Part shown: piece after piece, positions 4,138-21,838 of the stretch
Layout: the number at the start of each line of letters is the position of its first letter
Numbering within the stretch: the first letter of the stretch is position 1
Origin: Bacteroidota bacterium
Lineage (GTDB): Bacteria; Bacteroidota; Bacteroidia; Flavobacteriales; Flavobacteriaceae
Assembly: GCA_949528465.1 (NCBI GenBank)
Contig: CATIMP010000042.1
Coordinates: 1-33,429 of the forward strand
Reading direction: 5' to 3'
Length of the DNA stretch: 33,429 nucleotides
Program-made: the position numbers and the translations under genes
Notes under the pieces: model-generated
Databases searched by the model: none
Told to the model about the DNA's origin: nothing
The model's input: the letters and a program-made list of their open reading frames with translations, nothing else

Positions 4138-4791
4138 TTGATAGAAAATCTTCAATACAATAACGAACGCTCAGATTTAGCGATTCCCGAATACGGTCGT
4201 CACATTCATAAAATGATTCAGCAAGTAATGGCTGAAGACGATAAAGAACAACGAAACAAACAAGCCCAGGCCATTATTGGCATTATGGGAAATCTAAATC
4301 CTCACTTACGCGATGTTGCTGATTTTCAGCATAAACTTTGGGATCAATTGTTTATTATGTCCGACTTTGAGTTGGATGTAGATGCACCTTTTCCGAAGCC
4401 GAGCGCAGAAGTATTGGCGGCACCTCCAGCTCCTCTAGACTATCCACAATCGTATCCTAAATACCGTTTTTACGGCAATAATATTAAGGGAATGATAGAT
4501 GTTGTGGTTGGCTGGGAAGAAGGCGAGCTTAAAGAAGCATTGGTATATGTGATTGCCAATCATATGAAAAAATGCTTTTTGAATTGGAACAAAGACACGG
4601 TTGAAGATCATGTGATTTTTAATCATTTAGCTGAGCTTTCTGATGGAAAGCTTGTACTTAGTGGTAAAGATGTAGCTCTCACCGATTCTGAAAATCTTAT
4701 TCGCTTAACAAACAAGCGATTTGGTAAAGGTGGCACACGGAGCAAACACAAAAAATACCGAAACCCTAAGCAACAACAACGTCGCAAGTAA
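4138..4791 (+). CDS. DUF4290 family protein (apparent TTG start)
   Basis: LQYNNERSDLAIPEYGRHIHKMI is a characteristic Bacteroidota DUF4290 N-terminus; abuts murA. Confidence 0.85.
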   Translation: MIENLQYNNERSDLAIPEYGRHIHKMIQQVMAEDDKEQRNKQAQAIIGIMGNLNPHLRDVADFQHKLWDQLFIMSDFELDVDAPFPKPSAEVLAAPPAPLDYPQSYPKYRFYGNNIKGMIDVVVGWEEGELKEALVYVIANHMKKCFLNWNKDTVEDHVIFNHLAELSDGKLVLSGKDVALTDSENLIRLTNKRFGKGGTRSKHKKYRNPKQQQRRK

Positions 4792-6104: not shown

Positions 6105-6383
6105 CTAGCGCTTAGAGACCTTATTGTTACTAATTCCTCTTTGACGCGAACATTTAAATCGTCCAACTTCGTCCGTTCGCTTTTTTAAATGTTTGGTTTT
6201 TCTTCCTTGAACACGCTTTCTCCACAACTTAAAACTAGTTGGTTTCATGTTGCGTCGCATAATGGTTATAACCTCTTGCTCTTTGAGTCCAAATTGCATT
6301 TTGATTGCGTCAAACGGGGTGCGATCTTCCCAACCCATTTCAATAATCCTATCAATTTCTATATCTGTGAGTTTTCTTTTCAT
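6105..6383 (-). CDS. DUF2805 / TIGR03643 family protein, last gene of the photolyase operon
   Basis: MAxAWEDRTPF-like pattern: EMGWEDRTPFDAIKMQFGLKEQEVITIMRRNMKPTSFKLWRKRVQGRKTKH; 4-nt overlap with the upstream photolyase. Confidence 0.85.
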   Translation of the reverse strand: MKRKLTDIEIDRIIEMGWEDRTPFDAIKMQFGLKEQEVITIMRRNMKPTSFKLWRKRVQGRKTKHLKKRTDEVGRFKCSRQRGISNNKVSKR

Positions 6384-7852
6384 GCGTCCATAATATTTTC
6401 TCTGTCAGGCAGCGTGTGTCTTGCCACAATACGCCTGCTTTCATTGCGGACAATGGCGTTGCGTCGCATTTGCCACAATATTGCTGAGGCGTGTTTGTAG
6501 GTTTTTTTAATGTCTATTATTGGTTTTGGATAATTTTCTCCTAAAATAAAGCCATATCCCTGTTGCTCAATTTCAGTCATGGTCCATGGTTCAAGAACAA
6601 ATGCTGTGGGCAACTCCGCTAACTCTGGCACCCATTTCCGAATAAAATTTCCATCTGCATCATGTTCTAATGCATTTTTAGTAGGATTGTAAATACGCAC
6701 CATATTAATCCCTGTTTCTCCTGCTTGCATTTGAAACTGTGGGTAGTGTATGCCAGGCTCAAAATCTAAAAATTGACGCCCTAGAAATTGCGCCCCTGCT
6801 TGCCAAGGTTGCCATAAATGATGTGTAAAAAACGACACCACCATGGCGCGCATTCTAAAGTTTAAATACCCCGTTTCCACCACGCAACGCATACATGCAT
6901 CCACTAATGGATATCCTGTTTTGCCTTGTTTCCATGCGTCAATAAAGCGTGTGTTTGCCGGTTTGTTTATGTAGTGATATCCTTTGTTCACACTCTTAAA
7001 CTCCATTTGAGTTTCCATTTCAAACTTTTGAATAAAGTGTGCTTGCCAGCGTAACCTTGAGGTAAATGCATTGATTTGAAAGGCACTCGCACCAAGAGTT
7101 TTGGCTTGTTTTGCTCGTTGCCATACATAGCGTACAGATAGATTTCCCCACGCCAAGTAAGGCGAAACTCGACCGCAATGCAATCGGGCTGCTTCTGGTT
7201 TTGAAATCGACTGTTGGTATTTTTTATGACGTGTTTTTAAAAAACTCTCCAAGTAGGCTATCCCTTTTTTTGTCCCACCTTCTTGAATACCCTCCATTTT
7301 TTTGGGTTGAAGCTGAATTTCTTCAAGTTGCCCTCCGTTGACTGCTACAAAATTTTTTTCAGTAGCCGTAAAGGGTTTTATGGATTGCATCATGTAGTTT
7401 GTCCAGTAATCTCGCCAGTGCGCTCTGTTTGCCAATCCACGAAATACGCCATTATTGATGTGTTCTACCCAATGTGTATTTTGTAAACCGCACCATTTCT
7501 TTATCTCTTTATCTCTTTCAAACGTACAATTTAACCCTGTTTCTTGCATCGAAAAAAGTGTTTTTATACGCCAGGTTTTACTTAAATTCTCCAGTATTTC
7601 GGTTACTTCTCCGGTGGCACAATGTACTTTGGTTTTGTACGGATTAAGCTCTTGATTTAGATTTACAATGGATTGCTCAATAAAGTTCCAATGTCGTTTG
7701 TGATAATGTGGATTCTTTTTTAAGCTGGGTTCAAAAACATAAAGTAAGAGTAGGGGAGTGTTTGAATCAATCGCATTTTGAAGCCCTTCATTATCAAGGA
7801 TGCGCAAGTCACGCTTAAACCAAAAAACATTAATTGTTGGCTTAGAATGCAT
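6380..7852 (-). CDS. Photolyase/cryptochrome family FAD protein (490 aa)
   Basis: N-terminal FWFKRDLRILDNEGL and FAD-domain GYPLVDACMRCVVETGYLNFRMR...IHYPQFQMQAGETGINMVRIYNPTK. Confidence 0.92.
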   Translation of the reverse strand: MHSKPTINVFWFKRDLRILDNEGLQNAIDSNTPLLLLYVFEPSLKKNPHYHKRHWNFIEQSIVNLNQELNPYKTKVHCATGEVTEILENLSKTWRIKTLFSMQETGLNCTFERDKEIKKWCGLQNTHWVEHINNGVFRGLANRAHWRDYWTNYMMQSIKPFTATEKNFVAVNGGQLEEIQLQPKKMEGIQEGGTKKGIAYLESFLKTRHKKYQQSISKPEAARLHCGRVSPYLAWGNLSVRYVWQRAKQAKTLGASAFQINAFTSRLRWQAHFIQKFEMETQMEFKSVNKGYHYINKPANTRFIDAWKQGKTGYPLVDACMRCVVETGYLNFRMRAMVVSFFTHHLWQPWQAGAQFLGRQFLDFEPGIHYPQFQMQAGETGINMVRIYNPTKNALEHDADGNFIRKWVPELAELPTAFVLEPWTMTEIEQQGYGFILGENYPKPIIDIKKTYKHASAILWQMRRNAIVRNESRRIVARHTLPDRENIMDA

Positions 7853-9368
7853 CTGGATTTTCTATTATTTCGTAAGCGCGTGCCTTAATTTGTGCCAATT
7901 CTTCGGGTTTGATTTTTCCTAGTAAATTGAACATCATCCCCATGCGATGATTTCCCTTTAACTCTTCTCTTTTATCATCCAAAAAGTTCCAATACAAACT
8001 ATTAAATGGACAAGCGTTTTCTCCAACACGTTTCTTTTTGTCGTAACTACAACTACTGCAATAGTTGCTCATTTTATTCACATAAGATCCTGAAGAAACA
8101 TAGGGTTTTGTAGCAACAATTCCACCATCAGCATACTGACTCATACCACGTGTATTTGGCAGTTGTACCCATTCCACAGCGTCTGCGTAAATACCTAAAT
8201 ACCAGTCATCTACTTCATCGGGATGGGTTTGCAATAGCAACGCAAAATTTCCCGTAATCATCAAGCGTTGAATGTGATGGGCATAAGCGTTTTCCAAACT
8301 GTTGCTAATGCTTGTTTTAAGGCAATTCATTTTGGTTTCCCCCGTCCAATAAAAATCAGGGAGCTTTCCGAAATTATTTAACTCATTTTTTTGCTTGTAC
8401 TGCGGCATTTCTTTCCAATACAACCCTCGAATGTATTCGCGCCAACCTAAAATTTGACGTACAAAGCCTTCTATTTGTGAGAGACTTATGGCTTCGCTAT
8501 TTCTGAACGCAGTAATTGCACGTTCAATTACCTCATCTGGATTGATGAGTTTAACATTTAAGCTAAATGAAATACGCGCATGGAATAAATTCGTTTCATC
8601 TTGATGCATAGCATCTTGATAGGTCCCAAAATCCTGAAGCAAATAGTCGCAGAAATAGTTTAATTGATTAAGTGATTCCTCGCGAGAAACCGCAAATAGA
8701 AAAGATGACGGATTGAACGTTCCAATGGTATCTATTTTTGCTGCAACTATTTGATTGTGAATTTCTTTAGCCAAAGTCATATCGGGCTGATAGGGCGGAG
8801 GTATAAGGCCGCCTTTCCACGTATTCCGATTAAATTTATCGTAGTTCCAGCTGCCGCCTTCGGGCTGTCCGTCTACCATGAGGTATTGGTGTTTTTTTCG
8901 CATATAGCGATAAAAAAACTCCATGACCAACGATTTTTTACCTTCATAGAATTCAGCTAATTCTGTCCGAGTCGTCAAAAAATGTTCGGTATCACATGCG
9001 TTTACTTTAATGTCAAGTGTTTTTCCAAATGCTTTTAATTGCTCGTCTAACCTAAATTCATCTGGTAGTTGGTACGCGAAAGAAGTTGCATCGACCAACT
9101 CAATTACTTTTCCCAAATTTTTTGTTAAGTCTTGGGTATTATTGGGGTCATCAATGGTGTAATAAATTACGGTATGTCCGTATTCTTCTAACCTTCGCGC
9201 AAAACTGCGCATAGCAGCAAAAAAAGCAACAACTTTTTGCACATGATGACGCACATAATCTGTCTCTTGTCGCATTTCGAACATCACATAACACACCTGG
9301 TTATTGGGTTCAATATACCAGCTGTGTTCTTCGTTGAGTTGATCGCCAAGAATGAGTCGTACTTCCAT
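7842..9368 (-). CDS. Cryptochrome/photolyase-related protein of the Fe-S (PhrB/FeS-BCP, (6-4)-photolyase-like) class
   Basis: LILGDQLNEEHSW N-terminus; MNCLKT and YCSSCSYDKKKRVGENACPFNSLYWNF cysteine pattern consistent with the [4Fe-4S] cluster of this class. Confidence 0.93.
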   Translation of the reverse strand: MEVRLILGDQLNEEHSWYIEPNNQVCYVMFEMRQETDYVRHHVQKVVAFFAAMRSFARRLEEYGHTVIYYTIDDPNNTQDLTKNLGKVIELVDATSFAYQLPDEFRLDEQLKAFGKTLDIKVNACDTEHFLTTRTELAEFYEGKKSLVMEFFYRYMRKKHQYLMVDGQPEGGSWNYDKFNRNTWKGGLIPPPYQPDMTLAKEIHNQIVAAKIDTIGTFNPSSFLFAVSREESLNQLNYFCDYLLQDFGTYQDAMHQDETNLFHARISFSLNVKLINPDEVIERAITAFRNSEAISLSQIEGFVRQILGWREYIRGLYWKEMPQYKQKNELNNFGKLPDFYWTGETKMNCLKTSISNSLENAYAHHIQRLMITGNFALLLQTHPDEVDDWYLGIYADAVEWVQLPNTRGMSQYADGGIVATKPYVSSGSYVNKMSNYCSSCSYDKKKRVGENACPFNSLYWNFLDDKREELKGNHRMGMMFNLLGKIKPEELAQIKARAYEIIENPDAF

Positions 9369-10666
9369 TAGAAAAGTGTTGTTTGTAACCAGGTTTTTTG
9401 GTAGGTATTGTTTGGATCATAGCGTTCTGCTTGCCACGAAATATGAAATTTTCTATCTCGCGGGTCGTTCCCGACACCTGCATTGTACATCCAATTTCCA
9501 TAATTGCTATGCACATCATAATCAATAAGCATTGCTTCAAAATAGGCCGCACCAATGCGCCAGTCCAAATGCCATTCTTTACTGAAAAAACTCGCTACAT
9601 TTTGTCGTCCACGATTGCTCATAAATCCAGTGCAAGCCAATTCGCGCATATTCGCATTAACAAAAGGCTCCGGTGTGTTGCCATCAATCCATTTTTGTAC
9701 AAGCCTATTGTTCGTTTTCCACTCGTATGACTTGCCTAAAATCCCACCGATTTTAAAAATTTTATTGCCGTGTTTTAACGAGATATATTTAAAATAATCA
9801 CGCCAAATCAATTCAAAAATCAACCAATAGGTAGATTCATTTTTTGTAATTGTTTTCTCATATTTTTTTACTTCTGCGTAAATTGATCTTGGAGAAATAG
9901 ATCCAAACGCCATCCAAAGCGACAGTTTAGAACTGTATTTTTTTCCCAACAAACCATTTCTTGTTTTTTTATAGAAAGACAATTGTTTTGTGTCCCAAAA
10001 ATATTCTTGGATACGTTTCCATGCTGCCGCCTCACCGCCATCAAACGGAATTGCAGTTCTTGCATCGTTTGAGATGTTTTCATAGCCTAATTTTTCTAGC
10101 GTGGGCAACTCAGGAGTTTCATGTATAAGATTTTCAGTTGGCATGGGATCTGGTATCCCTATTGGTGGTCTAACATGACTTTGCTTTTCGCATTTTTTTC
10201 TAAAGACGGTAAACACTTCTGGTATATTTGAAACTTCCATGGGAATATCGTCTGGATGAAATAAAAACTGATCGTAATTCCAATGGGTTTTAATGTTGTT
10301 AGGAATTTGTGCCGCATCATCTATTTCTTCTTGAGTCCACTCGTGTTGTGCGTATAGATCAGTTACTCCATATTTTTCTTGAAGCTGCTGCACAGTTTGT
10401 TTCAAGTTTCCAACGGTAACCCACAATGTGATGTTGAGCTTTGCCAAATCTTCTTGGAGTTGGGTCAATGTTTGCAATAAAAATTGAGCTCTAAAAGCTT
10501 CCATTTTCTTAAAGCTCCACGGCGTTTCTTTTAGCCACGTTTCTGGAATATGAAAGAGTCCAATTACACGATTATGCTTTAATGTGGCTTGTGTAAGTGC
10601 TTGTTGGTCACGGACACGTAAGTCGTTCCGAAACCAAACTATTGCTGTTGTTTTTGCCTTCTGCAT
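9368..10666 (-). CDS. DASH-family cryptochrome
   Basis: [81 protein letters not shown]. Confidence 0.93.
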
Positions 10667-10785
10667 CTTTCGCTACAATATTTTACGTGTTCCCAATTGT
10701 TACTCCATTTTTTACGCCACACAAAAGGAAGGTTACACACCACACAAATTTTTTGTGGTAGGTGCTCTTTTTTTACGCCTTTCAT
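10639..10785 (-). CDS. DUF2256 family small zinc-ribbon protein (48 aa), absent from the supplied ORF track
   Basis: Manual translation: [48 protein letters not shown]. It has CxxC...CxxxC, an ATGA overlap with the upstream photolyase stop, and a 28-nt overlap with the cry-DASH start. Confidence 0.93.
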
Positions 10786-12074
10786 GTTGCCAATCCAGCT
10801 TTGTAGGTTTGCAAACAGCGCTCTCTAGCCATTTTGTGATCCACCATCTGATTTGGATACGCGAAGGATTGATATTCCGGCACCCATTTTTGTATGTATT
10901 TGTGGTCTTTGTCAAACTTTTTTACTTGCTCTGTGGGATTAAAAACACGGAAGTAAGGAGCTGCATCTACGCCGCTGCCAGCGACCCATTGCCAATTTCC
11001 GACATTGCTTGATTGTTCATAATCGAGTAGTTTTTCGGCAAAATAGGCCTCGCCCCAACGCCAATCAATAAGCAAGTGTTTACACAAAAAACTACCCACA
11101 AGCATACGAACGCGGTTGTGCATAAATCCTGTTTGATTGAGTTCACGCATACCCGCATCTACAAGTGGATATCCCGTTTTTCCTTCGCACCATTTTTTAA
11201 ATTCTTCTTCGTTATTGCGCCAATCAATGCGGTCGTATTGTGGTTTAAAACTCGATTCTGTTGTGTGCGGATAATGCCATAAAATTTGCATAAAAAACTC
11301 ACGCCAAACCAACTCTTTTAAAAAAGTAGGTTGTGTACTTTTACGGGCTTTCGCAATAATTTTTCTAATCGATACCGCACCAAATCGTAAATAAACTCCC
11401 AGTTTACTTGTGCTATCCATTGAAGGGAAGTTACGCGTGTCGTCATAAGCATCCATCATACTTTTAGATTCGCTTGCGGCTGGAAATTCGTGTTGTCCTT
11501 TGGAAAATCCAATCGCTTCTAAAGTTGGAATTTCCTCGAGATCTGACTTAAATAGTTTATCTAATAATTTTTCAGAAGGAAAATTTGGCACCCCTTGTTC
11601 TTCCATTTGAGCAAGCCATATTCTAGAATAAGGAGTATATACTTTATACGGAGTGCCGTCTTTTTTGAGCACTTCATCTGGTGTAAAAAGAACTTGGTCT
11701 TTAAATGTTTTGAATTCAACCCCCATTTCAGCCAGTTTGCGCTGCATCTCAGCATCACGTTTTCTAGCGTATGGCTCATAATCTTCGTTGGTGTAGACGG
11801 CTGTGATGTTATAGGCTGTGCACCACGAAGAAATACAATCTGATGGATTTCCCTTTTTTACAAGCATTCCGCTTCCTTTTTCACGAAAAATGGTATCCAA
11901 CTTCGAGATGTGCTTATGTATAAAACCTATACGCGCATCGTTTTTAGGTAGTTTGTTGGTGATGTTTTCATCAAATACGAAAACGGGTAGTACGGCATTT
12001 GCTTCTGAAAGCGCATGAAAAAACCCTGCGTTATCGGCTTCTCGTAAATCGCGACGAAACCAAAATAATATCAT
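10782..12074 (-). CDS. Deoxyribodipyrimidine photolyase, class I-like (430 aa)
   Basis: [86 protein letters not shown]. Confidence 0.93.
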
Positions 12075-12772
12075 CCATTTACATTTAAAGATGACATACC
12101 ACCGTCAAGACCTAATACTTGTCCTGTCATCCAGCTACTTTTTTCTGACAATAAGAAAGCCGCCAACTGTGCCACATCTTGTGTTGTTCCAATACGTTTT
12201 AGTGGATGTCTAAGGGCTGCTTTTTCCTTTTTAGCATCGTTATTTAAAAACCGATTTGCCAAAGGTGTGTCTGTTATTGAAGGGGCAATTACGTTAACTC
12301 TTACTTTTGGCGCCCATTCTGCTGCTAAGGAACGTCCTAAACCTTCTAATGCTCCTTTAGCGGCCGCTACACTTGCGTGAAAGGGCATGCCTGTTTGCAC
12401 AGCAACAGTACTAAAAAGCACCACACTCGCTTGTTCACTTGCAGCCAATAGCGGTTGTAATTGTTGTAATGTTTTCACTGCCCCCATTACATTAATAGAA
12501 AAGTCAGCCGTAAATGCCTCGGGTTTCAATCCTTTGAACGGACGCAAATTGATGCTTCCTGGGCAGTATGCAAAACCGTCTACTACTGCAGGAAGTTTTT
12601 CTAGCGGCAAATCGTCTTGAAGTACATCAAATGGGATGTGTGTTACGTTTTTTCCAGCAAGGCCTTCGTTTGTTCTCGAGGCTACAAAAATCGATGCGTC
12701 AGTAGGGAGTTCGTCTATAATTTGGCTGCCAATTCCATAGCTTCCGCCAATTAATAAAAATGTTTTACTCAT
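12071..12772 (-). CDS. SDR-family Rossmann protein with an atypical active site
   Basis: GGSYGIG cofactor loop and C-terminal GQVLGLDGGMS; 4-nt overlap with the downstream photolyase. Confidence 0.9.
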   Translation of the reverse strand: MSKTFLLIGGSYGIGSQIIDELPTDASIFVASRTNEGLAGKNVTHIPFDVLQDDLPLEKLPAVVDGFAYCPGSINLRPFKGLKPEAFTADFSINVMGAVKTLQQLQPLLAASEQASVVLFSTVAVQTGMPFHASVAAAKGALEGLGRSLAAEWAPKVRVNVIAPSITDTPLANRFLNNDAKKEKAALRHPLKRIGTTQDVAQLAAFLLSEKSSWMTGQVLGLDGGMSSLNVNG

Positions 12773-12777
12773 GATGT

Positions 12778-13227
12778 TTAATTAAAAATTTCGTTAAGTG
12801 CTTTTTCTCTATAATCAAAAATCTGCTTGACTTTTGCGCGCACAAAAAGCACATGTGCCAACCAACCTAATGGGCCAAGGGGTAATTTATAATCCACAAT
12901 GTCTTCCATCACCACACCGTTTTCCGTTTTTTTGATAAAATGCTTGTGATGCCAAAACGTATATGGACCAAATCGTTGCTCATCTACAAAGAACTCTCCT
13001 TCTTGTACATGGGTTATTTCGGTTACCCATCTAAAGGGAATTCCCAAAAGTGGTGTAAGTCTGTATTGAATGATTTGACCTGAAAACATCTTGCGTTCTG
13101 CGCCAGAAATAATATCAAATCCCATGTAATCTGGGGTGATACGTTTTAAGTTTTTTGGGTCAGATAAAAAAGTCCACGCTTGTTCCATTGTTGTGGGTAA
13201 TTCTTGTTTTGAGGTGTACTGGTACAT
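12778..13227 (-). CDS. SRPBCC (START-like) family protein, first gene of the photolyase operon
   Basis: MYQYTSKQELPTTMEQAWTFLSDPKNLKRITPDYMGF...; the ORF-track start at 13254 lies inside the promoter -7 element, so ATG 13227 is preferred. Confidence 0.85.
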   Translation of the reverse strand: MYQYTSKQELPTTMEQAWTFLSDPKNLKRITPDYMGFDIISGAERKMFSGQIIQYRLTPLLGIPFRWVTEITHVQEGEFFVDEQRFGPYTFWHHKHFIKKTENGVVMEDIVDYKLPLGPLGWLAHVLFVRAKVKQIFDYREKALNEIFN

Positions 13228-13241
13228 AGCGTATGTTTTAC

Positions 13242-13249
13242 GCAAATAT
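13242..13249 (-). promoter_or_regulatory. Candidate -7 element TATATTTG for the SRPBCC-photolyase operon
   Basis: Plus-strand CAAATATA, i.e. TAnnTTTG on the minus strand, 14 nt upstream of ATG 13227. Confidence 0.6.
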
Positions 13250-13253
13250 ACCA

Positions 13254-13296
13254 TTTTGTTTAATGTTTAGACACAAAAAGTTAAACAAAATAAACA
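13254..13296. promoter_or_regulatory. Operator-like inverted repeat upstream of the photolyase operon
   Basis: Plus strand TTTTGTTTAA-TGTTTAG-ACACAAAAAG-TTAAACAAAA-TAAACA. Perfect 10-nt inverted arms at 13254-13263 and 13281-13290; four copies of TGTTTA/TAAACA. Confidence 0.7.
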
Positions 13297-19058: not shown

Positions 19059-19526
19059 ATGGCTACTGCACAGCACGGCGCATTAGATTTAGAACGCCTT
19101 CCGAGTGCGGAAAAGCTTCGTGTTGCTGTAGTTGTTTCGAGCTGGAATGATTCCATAACAGAAAATCTTTACCAGGGCGCGCTTAGTGTCTTAGAACAAA
19201 AGGGATGTTCCGACGTGCAACGTATTGATGTTTCGGGAAGCTTTGAATTGATTTACGGCTGTAAAAAAGCTGTAGGCGCTGGTTTTGATGCTGTTATTGC
19301 ATTGGGAAGTGTTATTCGAGGCGAAACGGCGCATTTTGATTATGTATGTCAGGCAGTTTCAAATGGAATTAAAGACTTGAATCTTTTGGGAATTGCTCCT
19401 GTGATTTTCGGCGTTTTAACCGATGACACCCTTGAACAAGCAACGGCTAGAAGCGGAGGTGCACTTGGGAATAAAGGTGCTGAGGCCGCTGCGGCAGCCA
19501 TCGAAATGGCGCATCTTTCTATTTAA
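19059..19526 (+). CDS. ribH: 6,7-dimethyl-8-ribityllumazine synthase
   Basis: VVVSSWNDSITENLYQGA; GSFELIYGCKKA; ALGSVIRGETAHFDYVCQAVSNGI; GNKGAEAAAAAIEM. Confidence 0.96.
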   Translation: MATAQHGALDLERLPSAEKLRVAVVVSSWNDSITENLYQGALSVLEQKGCSDVQRIDVSGSFELIYGCKKAVGAGFDAVIALGSVIRGETAHFDYVCQAVSNGIKDLNLLGIAPVIFGVLTDDTLEQATARSGGALGNKGAEAAAAAIEMAHLSI

Positions 19527-19965
19527 AATATTTTAAAGGAACCCAAAGCATACCAAAGCATTCACCTTTTTCTTTTCCTAGGTGTTTGTGGTGGATTTTA
19601 TGCGCTCTACGCACACCTCGCGCGTAGCGGTTGTTTGCATTACGCCAAACTTTAAAGCGCTGATGAATAAAAATGTCATGTACAAAAAAATAGGCAAGGC
19701 CGTAGGCAAAAATCCCAATACCGATAGCTAAGCCTGGCGTGAAATTATATTCACCCCAAAGAATAACGCAGCCGGCACTGACGACAGCATAGAAAATAAA
19801 AAACAAATCGTTGCGCTCAAACCACGACTTGTGGTCTTTGTGGTGGTGATCTTTATGCAATGACCACAAAAAACCATGCATCACGTATTTGTGTGTAAAC
19901 CACGCCATGAATTCCATTACAAAGAATGTGCAAAAGAATACAAAAATTTGGGTAACAATGTTCAT
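19519..19965 (-). CDS. crtZ: Beta-carotene hydroxylase (fatty acid hydroxylase superfamily)
   Basis: His boxes HKYVMHGFLWSLHKDHHH and RRAHKIHHKHLG. Confidence 0.9.
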   Translation of the reverse strand: MNIVTQIFVFFCTFFVMEFMAWFTHKYVMHGFLWSLHKDHHHKDHKSWFERNDLFFIFYAVVSAGCVILWGEYNFTPGLAIGIGIFAYGLAYFFVHDIFIHQRFKVWRNANNRYARGVRRAHKIHHKHLGKEKGECFGMLWVPLKYFK

Positions 19966-19973
19966 GTAAAGAA

Positions 19974-20813
19974 TTATAAAACATTAAATTGATAACGAAT
20001 GAACGAACGTGCTAAGACATCTGCTTTTTGGTAGTTTGGCACTCGAATACGCTTCGATTTTAGCTGAGTTGAGGGAGTTCTCTTAAGTTTCTTAAGCAAA
20101 CGCATGTAATATTTGTAGGCGGTGTAAACACCAAATTTGGCATCATCGGGGAGTTTGAAAATGCCAGAAAGCCCCTTCTTGAAGTCCGCTTCAATTTCTG
20201 AAATAATTAGTTGCTTTGAAGTTTCATCAAAACAATTCATGTCAATATTTGGAAAGTATGTGCGTTCGAGTTGGTCAAAATCAGCCTTTAAATCACGTAA
20301 AAAATTAACCTTTTGAAAGGCAGAACCCAGTGCCATTGCAGATTCTTTTAGGGAATTAAAAAGGGATTGATCTCCTTTTACAAAAACCTTTAAACACATA
20401 AGACCAACTACATCAGCAGAACCGTAAATGTATTGTTTGTAGTCTTGCTCATTGTCATAGATTTTTTTGGATAAATCCCATTTCATGCTTTGCATGAAGG
20501 CGTTTATGTGGTCGCGATCAATGTTGTATCTATGTACAGTTTCTTGAAAGCTATTGAGAATTGGGTTTAAGCTAATTTTATCATGAAGCGCATTTTCTAA
20601 ATCTTGTTCAAAACGACTAAATAATACAGGCTTGTTGTATTCATGGAATGTATCAACGATTTCATCCGCAAAGCGCACAAAACCATAAATATTGTAAATA
20701 TCTTGGCGAATTTCGTTTGACAGCATTCGGGTAGCTAACGAAAATGAAGTGCTGTATGACTCTGTCACGAGCTTACTACATTGATGTGATACCTGATCAA
20801 AAAGCACTTTCAT
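19974..20813 (-). CDS. crtB: Phytoene/squalene synthase
   Basis: STSFSLATRMLSNEIRQDIYNIYGFVRFADEIVDTF; GSAFQKVNFLRDLKADFDQLERTYFP. Confidence 0.9.
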   Translation of the reverse strand: MKVLFDQVSHQCSKLVTESYSTSFSLATRMLSNEIRQDIYNIYGFVRFADEIVDTFHEYNKPVLFSRFEQDLENALHDKISLNPILNSFQETVHRYNIDRDHINAFMQSMKWDLSKKIYDNEQDYKQYIYGSADVVGLMCLKVFVKGDQSLFNSLKESAMALGSAFQKVNFLRDLKADFDQLERTYFPNIDMNCFDETSKQLIISEIEADFKKGLSGIFKLPDDAKFGVYTAYKYYMRLLKKLKRTPSTQLKSKRIRVPNYQKADVLARSFIRYQFNVL

Positions 20814-20894: not shown

Positions 20895-21800
20895 TTAAAT
20901 GTGACTCAACATATCTGTTACTTCATCAATTGACCTAAAGGCACGTACTTTTTTTGGAAGCTCTTCTTTGATAAATTGAACTTGGTACCCTAAAATCCAC
21001 AAATCACATTCAATATTTTCAATGATTTCAGATGAAAAAGTATTTAAATAGGCATCAATTTTTTCTTGGATGGGTTCAATTGTAAAATATGACATAAATG
21101 TAATGGGTTCTCCTATGTCAACAAGATTTTTCAAGCTTGCGATTGGAACGGATTGTCCAAGGAAAACACATTGAAAACCACTGTTAAGCACTTCATACTG
21201 AAGGTATAACAATCCTAATTCATGAATTTCGTTATCTGGTAAATACAACACAAAGCGCCTGTCGTTTCGTCTTGTTTCTTGAAGTTGAAGCGCTTCACAC
21301 ATCGAGTGAATTTTCTGCTTTACTAAGCTCGTAATAAAGTGCTCATGCGACGGGCTTATTGAGTTTGTTTGCCACAACACGCCAAGTTCATTCATCAACG
21401 GAATAAAAACATTTTTAAAAACTTCTCTGAACGAAAACTGGTCGAGAAGTTCATTAAAGGTTTTTGTAAATAATCGCTGATCAAAATTGATCATGGCAAG
21501 TTTGAACAAGCCAATGGACCAATCATCTGCAGTTTTGTTTATTGTTAAATTGTGGACATTTTCTGTAACTTCATGCTGAGATAAAGCAGCAATTTTCGAT
21601 ATTTTGTAACCGTTGTTGTAAAGCAAGGTTACATTCAGAAGTTTTTGTAAGTTTTCAAGGTCATACATTCTGATATTAGATTCGGTACGCTGGGGCTCAA
21701 AGAGATTATACCGTTTTTCCCATATGCGAATCGTGTGTGCCTTGATACCAGAGAGATGCTCTAGGTTTTTTATAGTGAAACTATTTTTAACGCGATCCAT
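20895..21800 (-). CDS. MerR-family regulator with C-terminal B12-binding domain (CarH/LitR-like photoreceptor candidate)
   Basis: N-terminal MerR HTH (IKNLEHLSGIKAHTIRIWEKRYNLFEPQRTESNIRMY). LGVLWQTNSISPSHEHF contains W-x9-EH. LPDNEIHELGLLYLQYEVLNSGFQCVFLGQSVP resembles a cobalamin-binding ExHxxG loop. Confidence 0.9.
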   Translation of the reverse strand: MDRVKNSFTIKNLEHLSGIKAHTIRIWEKRYNLFEPQRTESNIRMYDLENLQKLLNVTLLYNNGYKISKIAALSQHEVTENVHNLTINKTADDWSIGLFKLAMINFDQRLFTKTFNELLDQFSFREVFKNVFIPLMNELGVLWQTNSISPSHEHFITSLVKQKIHSMCEALQLQETRRNDRRFVLYLPDNEIHELGLLYLQYEVLNSGFQCVFLGQSVPIASLKNLVDIGEPITFMSYFTIEPIQEKIDAYLNTFSSEIIENIECDLWILGYQVQFIKEELPKKVRAFRSIDEVTDMLSHI

Positions 21801-21838
21801 AATGTTTAATCTTTAGCTAACAATTTTAAACAAAACTA
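21801..21838. promoter_or_regulatory. Operator-like motif and candidate -7 (TAGTTTTG, minus strand, 21831-21838) upstream of merR
   Basis: Plus strand AATGTTTAATCTTTAGCTAACAATTTTAAACAAAACTA, closely matching the photolyase-operon motif at 13254-13290. Confidence 0.65.

Follow-up and report, generated by a model that had tools for sequence, protein, structure and literature searches.

The window analysed here, a stretch of 33,429 nucleotides from a member of the Flavobacteriaceae, carries on its reverse strand a gene for a MerR-type regulator followed by two genes of carotenoid synthesis:

20895..21800, minus strand: coding sequence of a CarH-like MerR/B12 regulator (301 aa, ATG start)
21576..21779, minus strand: MerR winged-helix DNA-binding domain of the regulator (residues 8-75; PF13411, PF00376 and alignment)
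19974..20813, minus strand: crtB, phytoene synthase, directly downstream of the regulator (PF00494, SQS_PSY, E 5e-47; synteny)
19519..19965, minus strand: putative crtZ-like beta-carotene hydroxylase (histidine motifs and position; synteny)

A preliminary description of this DNA had placed crtB and crtZ immediately downstream of the regulator, and both are indeed found there on the same strand; crtB is identified by Pfam, and the name CrtZ comes from histidine motifs and position, with no Pfam or NCBIfam model matching that gene. Congeners whose flanking DNA is long enough to tell all have the order regulator, crtB, crtZ. Other genera have a gene-sized gap between regulator and crtB, which holds crtI where this was checked, and in T. 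thermophilus carH likewise adjoins crtB and phr. The only strong crtI-family match of the genome studied here (L172, on contig C15) is cut by the contig end and lies away from the regulator; congeners have one or two crtI-family genes, on other contigs.

The best relative of the regulator in the PDB, as judged by sequence, is T. thermophilus CarH (TtCarH; phmmer, 3whp E 7.5e-15 and 5c8d E 8.9e-15), and the alignment spans residues 7-253 of the regulator. The recognition motif, RIWEKRY at residues 25-31, departs from the RxWERRY of CarH by a single R to K change, and residues 100-164 correspond to the four-helix B12-binding_2 domain PF02607. A Pfam search gave no match in the regulator to the Rossmann family PF02310, and the score against the NCBIfam CarH equivalog NF052513 was 70.9 bits, the cut-off being 400. 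Matches to the regulator occur in 45 of 60 genomes of relatives, 44 of them full-length. A further MerR-type protein, a short one in a frame of 107 aa, is also encoded in the genome of the window.

Two cofactor motifs had been read from the translation in the preliminary description, a W-x9-EH element and a loop resembling ExHxxG. Both are present, the first as LGVLW-QTNSISPSH-EHF (W143, nine residues, then E153-H154) and the second as PDNEIHELG (E191-x-H193-x-x-G196):

21372..21374, minus strand: W143 codon, equivalent to W131 of TtCarH, adenosyl cap
21339..21344, minus strand: E153-H154 codons, equivalent to E141-H142 of TtCarH
21213..21230, minus strand: E191-I-H193-E-L-G196, lower axial His motif ExHxxG, H193 being equivalent to H177 of TtCarH

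These pairs are taken from a full-length alignment with the TtCarH of plasmid pTT27, which also pairs G196 with G180. Since this alignment is in register, both motifs are real and match the CarH pocket, and by this pairing every residue proven to contact the cofactor in CarH has its counterpart in the regulator. One part of the earlier wording has to be narrowed: the Wx9EH motif had been said to cap the adenosyl face in CarH/CarA-type regulators, and it does so in CarH but not in CarA, which has no Trp there (PMC9304148, PMC8156234), so that Wx9EH marks CarH only.

The conservation of these residues was examined in 80 homologues from named genome records (flavobacterial, to judge by the titles, in nearly every case) together with the window protein, 81 sequences in all, most of which share just 48-63% identity with the query. 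Wx9EH and ExH are each kept in 81 of 81, and the Gly that follows ExH in 80. Other families of the order mostly retain the pocket motifs, with G028 and G049 as exceptions; these are natural pocket variants, the G028 homologue having ER instead of EH, and that of G049 having ExNxxL, with Asn replacing the axial His. Two Persicobacter homologues (Bacteroidota; L259:5001-5870 and L263:4001-4636) lack both Wx9EH and the axial ExH His, and are possibly a B12-independent, CarA-like branch. As motif loss does occur in Persicobacter, the invariance in Flavobacteriaceae is informative.

The fold predicted by AlphaFold2 with 56 homologues (pLDDT 88.5, pTM 0.82) has a winged helix-turn-helix at the N-terminus, followed by a helical bundle at residues 91-172 and, at 178-300, a Rossmann part of five strands. 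When this model was compared with the PDB by Foldseek, ranks 1-17 were all TtCarH, with full-length E values down to 1.2e-13; the B12 domain of TtCarH was matched with a TM score of 0.81-0.85 by target length and an rmsd of about 3 A, and the next match was the B12 domain of the photoactive CtMerR. The mapping of W, EH and the ExH His onto the CarH B12 pocket, which had been suggested as a check, thus holds both by sequence and by fold.

The published CarH signature reads Wx9EH and E/DxHx2G-x41-SxV/T-x22-27-GG (PMC8156234, PMC9304148). In the rest of this signature the regulator has a spacing of x40, then S237-Y-F239 instead of SxV/T, and finally a changed glycine pair:

20988..20993, minus strand: L270-G271, at the place of the canonical GG (G247-G248 of TtCarH)

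The first Gly of this pair is never kept, being replaced by Leu so that all sequences have LG, and the second is kept in 81 of 81. Because the end of the signature differs and the NF052513 score falls below its cut-off, we file the protein as a CarH-like variant and not as a strict CarH. Further differences lie in single residues. His132 of TtCarH, which follows the Trp and is present in many but not all CarH, serves as upper ligand after light (a bis-His light state) and is important for tetramer disassembly; in one report, illumination left the H132A variant of TtCarH mostly as a tetramer (PMC10442372). The equivalent position here is Q144, with Gln in 80 of the 81 sequences and His in one. 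The R176-D201 salt bridge of the TtCarH head-to-tail dimer is absent, the residues here being I192 and S217, and of two interface glycines G160 is replaced by Q172 and G192 is retained as G208. As His132 and the salt bridge of CarH are both missing, the regulator must have a light state and an oligomer interface unlike those of TtCarH, and the release mechanism that would operate without them is the most interesting biochemical question raised by this protein.

Might the regulator, then, have lost B12 sensing altogether, remaining a dark repressor of crt genes that answers a partner protein (an antirepressor or a LOV protein) in the manner of CarA or class II LitR? Such B12-independent relatives are known (PMC9304148, PMC9758184), the Rossmann part is divergent here, with no GG and no PF02310 match, and the Persicobacter homologues illustrate the loss of both motifs. 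However, CarA has no Trp in Wx9EH, whereas none of our 81 sequences deviates at Trp, Glu, His or the axial His; class II LitR has no Rossmann part, whereas a five-stranded one with ExHxxG is predicted here; and invariance of the pocket is hard to explain without a ligand. We consider this alternative quite improbable.

A second group of genes, which we refer to as the photolyase operon, is located on the same (minus) strand at 13254-6380, 8 kb from the regulator:

12778..13227, minus strand: first gene of the operon (150 aa, no Pfam match, SRPBCC-like by eye)
12071..12772, minus strand: short-chain dehydrogenase
10782..12074, minus strand: DNA photolyase
9368..10666, minus strand: DASH cryptochrome (above the NCBIfam cut-off)
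7842..9368, minus strand: photolyase-related protein (PF04244)
6380..7852, minus strand: photolyase/cryptochrome-type flavoprotein

An inverted repeat of the same kind, accompanied by a -7 box, stands before the regulator and before this operon:

21803..21834, minus strand: putative operator TTTGTTTAA-N16-TTAAACA before the regulator
21831..21838, minus strand: presumed -7 box TAGTTTTG, overlapping the regulator's putative operator
13255..13289, minus strand: putative operator TTTGTTTAA-N17-TTAAACAAA before the photolyase operon, a 9-bp perfect inverted repeat
13243..13250, minus strand: -7 box TATATTTG, right after the putative operator of the photolyase operon

We take TAGTTTTG at 21831..21838 to be a -7 box of the Bacteroidota type. 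The apparent start of the first photolyase-operon gene at 13254 is not conserved, and congeners use an ATG matching 13227; as the TATATTTG box falls between these two positions, 13227 is likely the true start. In 10 of 10 congeners the photolyase operon is preceded by the same inverted repeat and then by a TATATTTG-type box, the box being TATATTTG itself in nine of ten congeneric sequences and TATATTCG in the tenth. Each operator arm contains, by eye, the TnnACA core (as TAAACA) of nAnnTnnACAn, the 11-bp direct-repeat pattern of CarH operators, without its leading A.

Of 79 homologous loci, 64 have TTTGTTTAA upstream of the regulator, where 0.8 would be expected. The window holds only three copies, one before the regulator (21826-21834) and an inverted pair before the photolyase operon (13255-13263 and 13281-13289); three copies per window are no more than chance would give (mean 2.34), and it is their positions that carry the weight. 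A search of 60 genomes for TTTGTTTAA-N(10-20)-TTAAACA, with the both-strand duplicates of the palindrome counted once, yielded 107 sites, 88 of which have a spacer of exactly 16, and a control pattern yielded 0-2 per genome and strand. The sites are intergenic in all inspected stretches but two; the exceptions have a 14-bp and a 20-bp spacer. Representatives of other families carry the site between the regulator gene and crtI (G024, G028, G029, G035, G038, G039, G042), and among 80 named loci 20 have a site (up to 3 mismatches, spacer 16) within 260 bp after the regulator, compared with 0.03 per spacer in shuffles. Most of these 20 sites bracket a TAnnTTTG box, a position that fits a repressor. 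A search for 11-bp direct repeats like those of TtCarH gave no consistent pattern, and the tenfold spacing of TGT observed in the genus is no more than suggestive.

Presence of the putative operator is associated with that of the regulator. Outside the genus of the window, the spacer-16 site was found in 18 of 28 genomes that encode the regulator and in 0 of 15 that do not (Fisher p 4e-5, shared ancestry ignored), and within the family the counts are 14 of 16 with and 0 of 4 without (p 0.003, shared ancestry again ignored). Ten genomes with the regulator, mostly those with the most distant homologues, have no strict operator.

The repeat could in principle be owned by a different protein, either a TetR_C_23 regulator or another MerR, in which case the link to the regulon would be false even if the protein is CarH-like. 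The inverted repeat does occur 27-33 bp before a TetR_C_23 gene in eight genomes of other genera (L239, L240, L241, L242, L250, L251, L224, L226), and the short MerR-type protein of the genome itself is a further candidate. However, in our genus sample, made up of the genome of the window (1.44 Mb, 89.5% complete) and 16 congeners, none of the 17 genomes has TetR_C_23 and every one carries the site; five further site-bearing genomes (G027, G034, G035, G038, G049) lack TetR_C_23 as well. TetR_C_23 was therefore rejected as the operator's owner, and the TetR gene is more likely a target, possibly a secondary regulator in a light regulon. The site moreover adjoins the CarH-like regulator in several families of the order, and another owner seems to us unlikely.

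Further sites point to additional candidate targets. A third inverted repeat in the genome of the window lies 71 bp before htpG (Hsp90; L237, C7:8000-17000, locus 4409-4440), and a similar site is present in most congeners; in other genera one precedes htpG. Three congeners (L232, L233, L234) have the repeat 2 bp before msrA (methionine sulfoxide reductase). Near sites in relatives we also found genes for TspO, fasciclin-domain lipoproteins, a GHMP kinase, a DUF2867 NAD-binding protein and a DASH-type photolyase homologue. Several of these genes are typical of photo-oxidative defence.

The genus appears to import B12 and to adenosylate it. A cobalamin riboswitch precedes the gene of a BtuB-like TonB receptor, and the adenosyltransferase PduO, with its motifs TKTGD.G and RRAER intact, is found in 16 of the 17 genomes, including that of the window; all 16 genomes with the regulator have it. 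The sole genome without PduO is G004 (79% complete), where the regulator was likewise not found. CobO/BtuR and the methylmalonyl-CoA mutase family are each absent from all 17 (the mutase occurs in 38 of 43 searched genomes outside this set), and so is class II ribonucleotide reductase NrdJ above its cut-off; matches of about 340 bits to NrdJ fall below the 400-bit cut-off and resemble class I-like second copies of other genomes. PF02310 proteins in the 12 congeneric genomes searched comprise only MetH, in some of them, and weak matches including IMP dehydrogenase, which by eye is also what the weak PF02310 match of the genome of the window represents. MetH is present in 8 of the 17 genomes and absent from that of the window. 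QueG is present; this enzyme uses cobalamin but is not known to use the adenosyl form. QueG therefore rules out that B12 as a whole is imported for the regulator alone, and only the adenosyl arm is without another client. With B12 import, adenosylation by PduO, and no mutase, NrdJ or other PF02310 client, the regulator is the only AdoCbl client that we found, and a PduO kept with no other client found also argues against a regulator of the CarA or LitR kind. In G024 (99% complete) the regulator and mutases are present and neither PduO nor CobO was found; this organism may import ready-made AdoCbl or rely on a different adenosyltransferase.

The same economy invites the reading that AdoCbl binding reports the supply of B12 to the carotenoid and repair genes, the loss of the ligand in light being incidental. 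The conserved pocket would serve this purpose equally well, and sensing the vitamin could be of advantage to a streamlined organism that imports B12. Against this, B12 uptake is already governed by the cobalamin riboswitch, the targets (crt, photolyases and cryptochromes, and in relatives MsrA, TspO and Hsp90) belong to photo-oxidative defence and not to B12 metabolism, and there is no operator at the B12 receptor among the own-genome matches. A sensor of cobalamin level thus appears very improbable.

Homology, residue mapping, fold, operon structure, the adenosyltransferase, the B12 uptake genes and the co-occurrence of the operator all support a photoreceptor-repressor. We therefore consider it probable that the gene encodes a CarH-like protein which, in the dark and dependent on AdoCbl, represses carotenoid and photorepair genes and releases them in light. 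We infer AdoCbl binding, a light response, a change of oligomer state, repression and operator binding by the regulator, as follows. In the dark, the regulator would bind AdoCbl made by PduO from imported B12, holding it between the four-helix bundle, with W143, E153 and H154 over the adenosyl group, and the Rossmann fold, with H193 as lower axial ligand. The AdoCbl-bound protein would form an oligomer that occupies the TTTGTTTAA-N16-TTAAACA inverted repeats overlapping or bracketing the -7 boxes, at the promoters of its own gene with crtB-crtZ and of the photolyase-cryptochrome operon. Light would break the Co-C bond, upon which the oligomer would fall apart and the genes would be expressed. 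The prediction of AdoCbl-dependent light sensing made in the preliminary description is thus supported, as judged from sequence comparison and modelling, by the pocket mapping, the fold, PduO, the riboswitch-BtuB pair and the shared putative operator; the GG, His132 and R176-D201 of CarH are the parts that are not conserved.

More tentatively, and with somewhat less than even confidence, we suggest that these proteins form a distinct Flavobacteriaceae branch of B12 photoreceptors with an operator code of its own, a palindrome with a fixed 16-bp spacer, and with a broad photo-oxidative regulon, and that in this streamlined marine genus adenosyl-B12 is kept for light sensing alone. The regulon would include carotenoids and photolyases/cryptochromes, and in relatives MsrA, HtpG, TspO, fasciclin-domain lipoproteins and the TetR regulator. 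If this is true, cells that import and adenosylate B12, with no other AdoCbl enzyme found, would need B12 to see light, and the vitamin B12 supply of the surface ocean would be tied to photoprotection. Since the operator is precise, the regulon is directly testable.

A literature search, mostly without subscription journals, found no description of a flavobacterial CarH or of this operator, and what appears to be new is therefore a flavobacterial lineage, divergent within the CarH family, together with its putative operator and regulon. In Chryseobacterium lacus, carotenoid synthesis is induced by light, no car/lit genes were found and a new regulator was suspected (PMC7064467); the present regulator family could provide light control in many other flavobacteria. 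MliR of Bizionia (PMC9478572) has no effector domain and was ruled out as an ortholog. The uncharacterised 'MerR' of flavobacterial crt clusters, for example that of Nonlabens spongiae, is likewise the first gene of its cluster but was assigned no function (PMC11855829); judged by its position, it very probably belongs to the same orthologous family.

Among characterised systems, CarA of Myxococcus xanthus is also a crt repressor that combines MerR and B12-type domains, but it has no Trp in Wx9EH and works without B12 (PMC9304148), whereas the regulator described here has the full motif. CtMerR of Chloracidobacterium thermophilum (PDB 8JBS/8JBT; PMC11796333) is a B12-binding, photoactive MerR-type protein that has the GxxW, EH and GxxxP elements in common with ours; it comes from a different lineage, and its GxxH is NxxH here. 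TtCarH (PDB 5C8A-F, 3WHP, 8C31-8C37) has the same arrangement of MerR domain, four-helix bundle and Rossmann part, the residues W131, E141, H142 and H177 are kept, and its gene also stands beside crtB with a photolyase nearby. The two proteins are nevertheless only about 21-24% identical, and GG is changed to LG, H132 to Q, R176-D201 to I192-S217 and G160 to Q in the regulator. The TtCarH operator consists of 11-bp direct repeats (PMC8156234), whereas the putative operator here is an inverted repeat with a 16-bp spacer, and compared with T. thermophilus the neighbouring operon here contains three more photolyase/cryptochrome-type genes.
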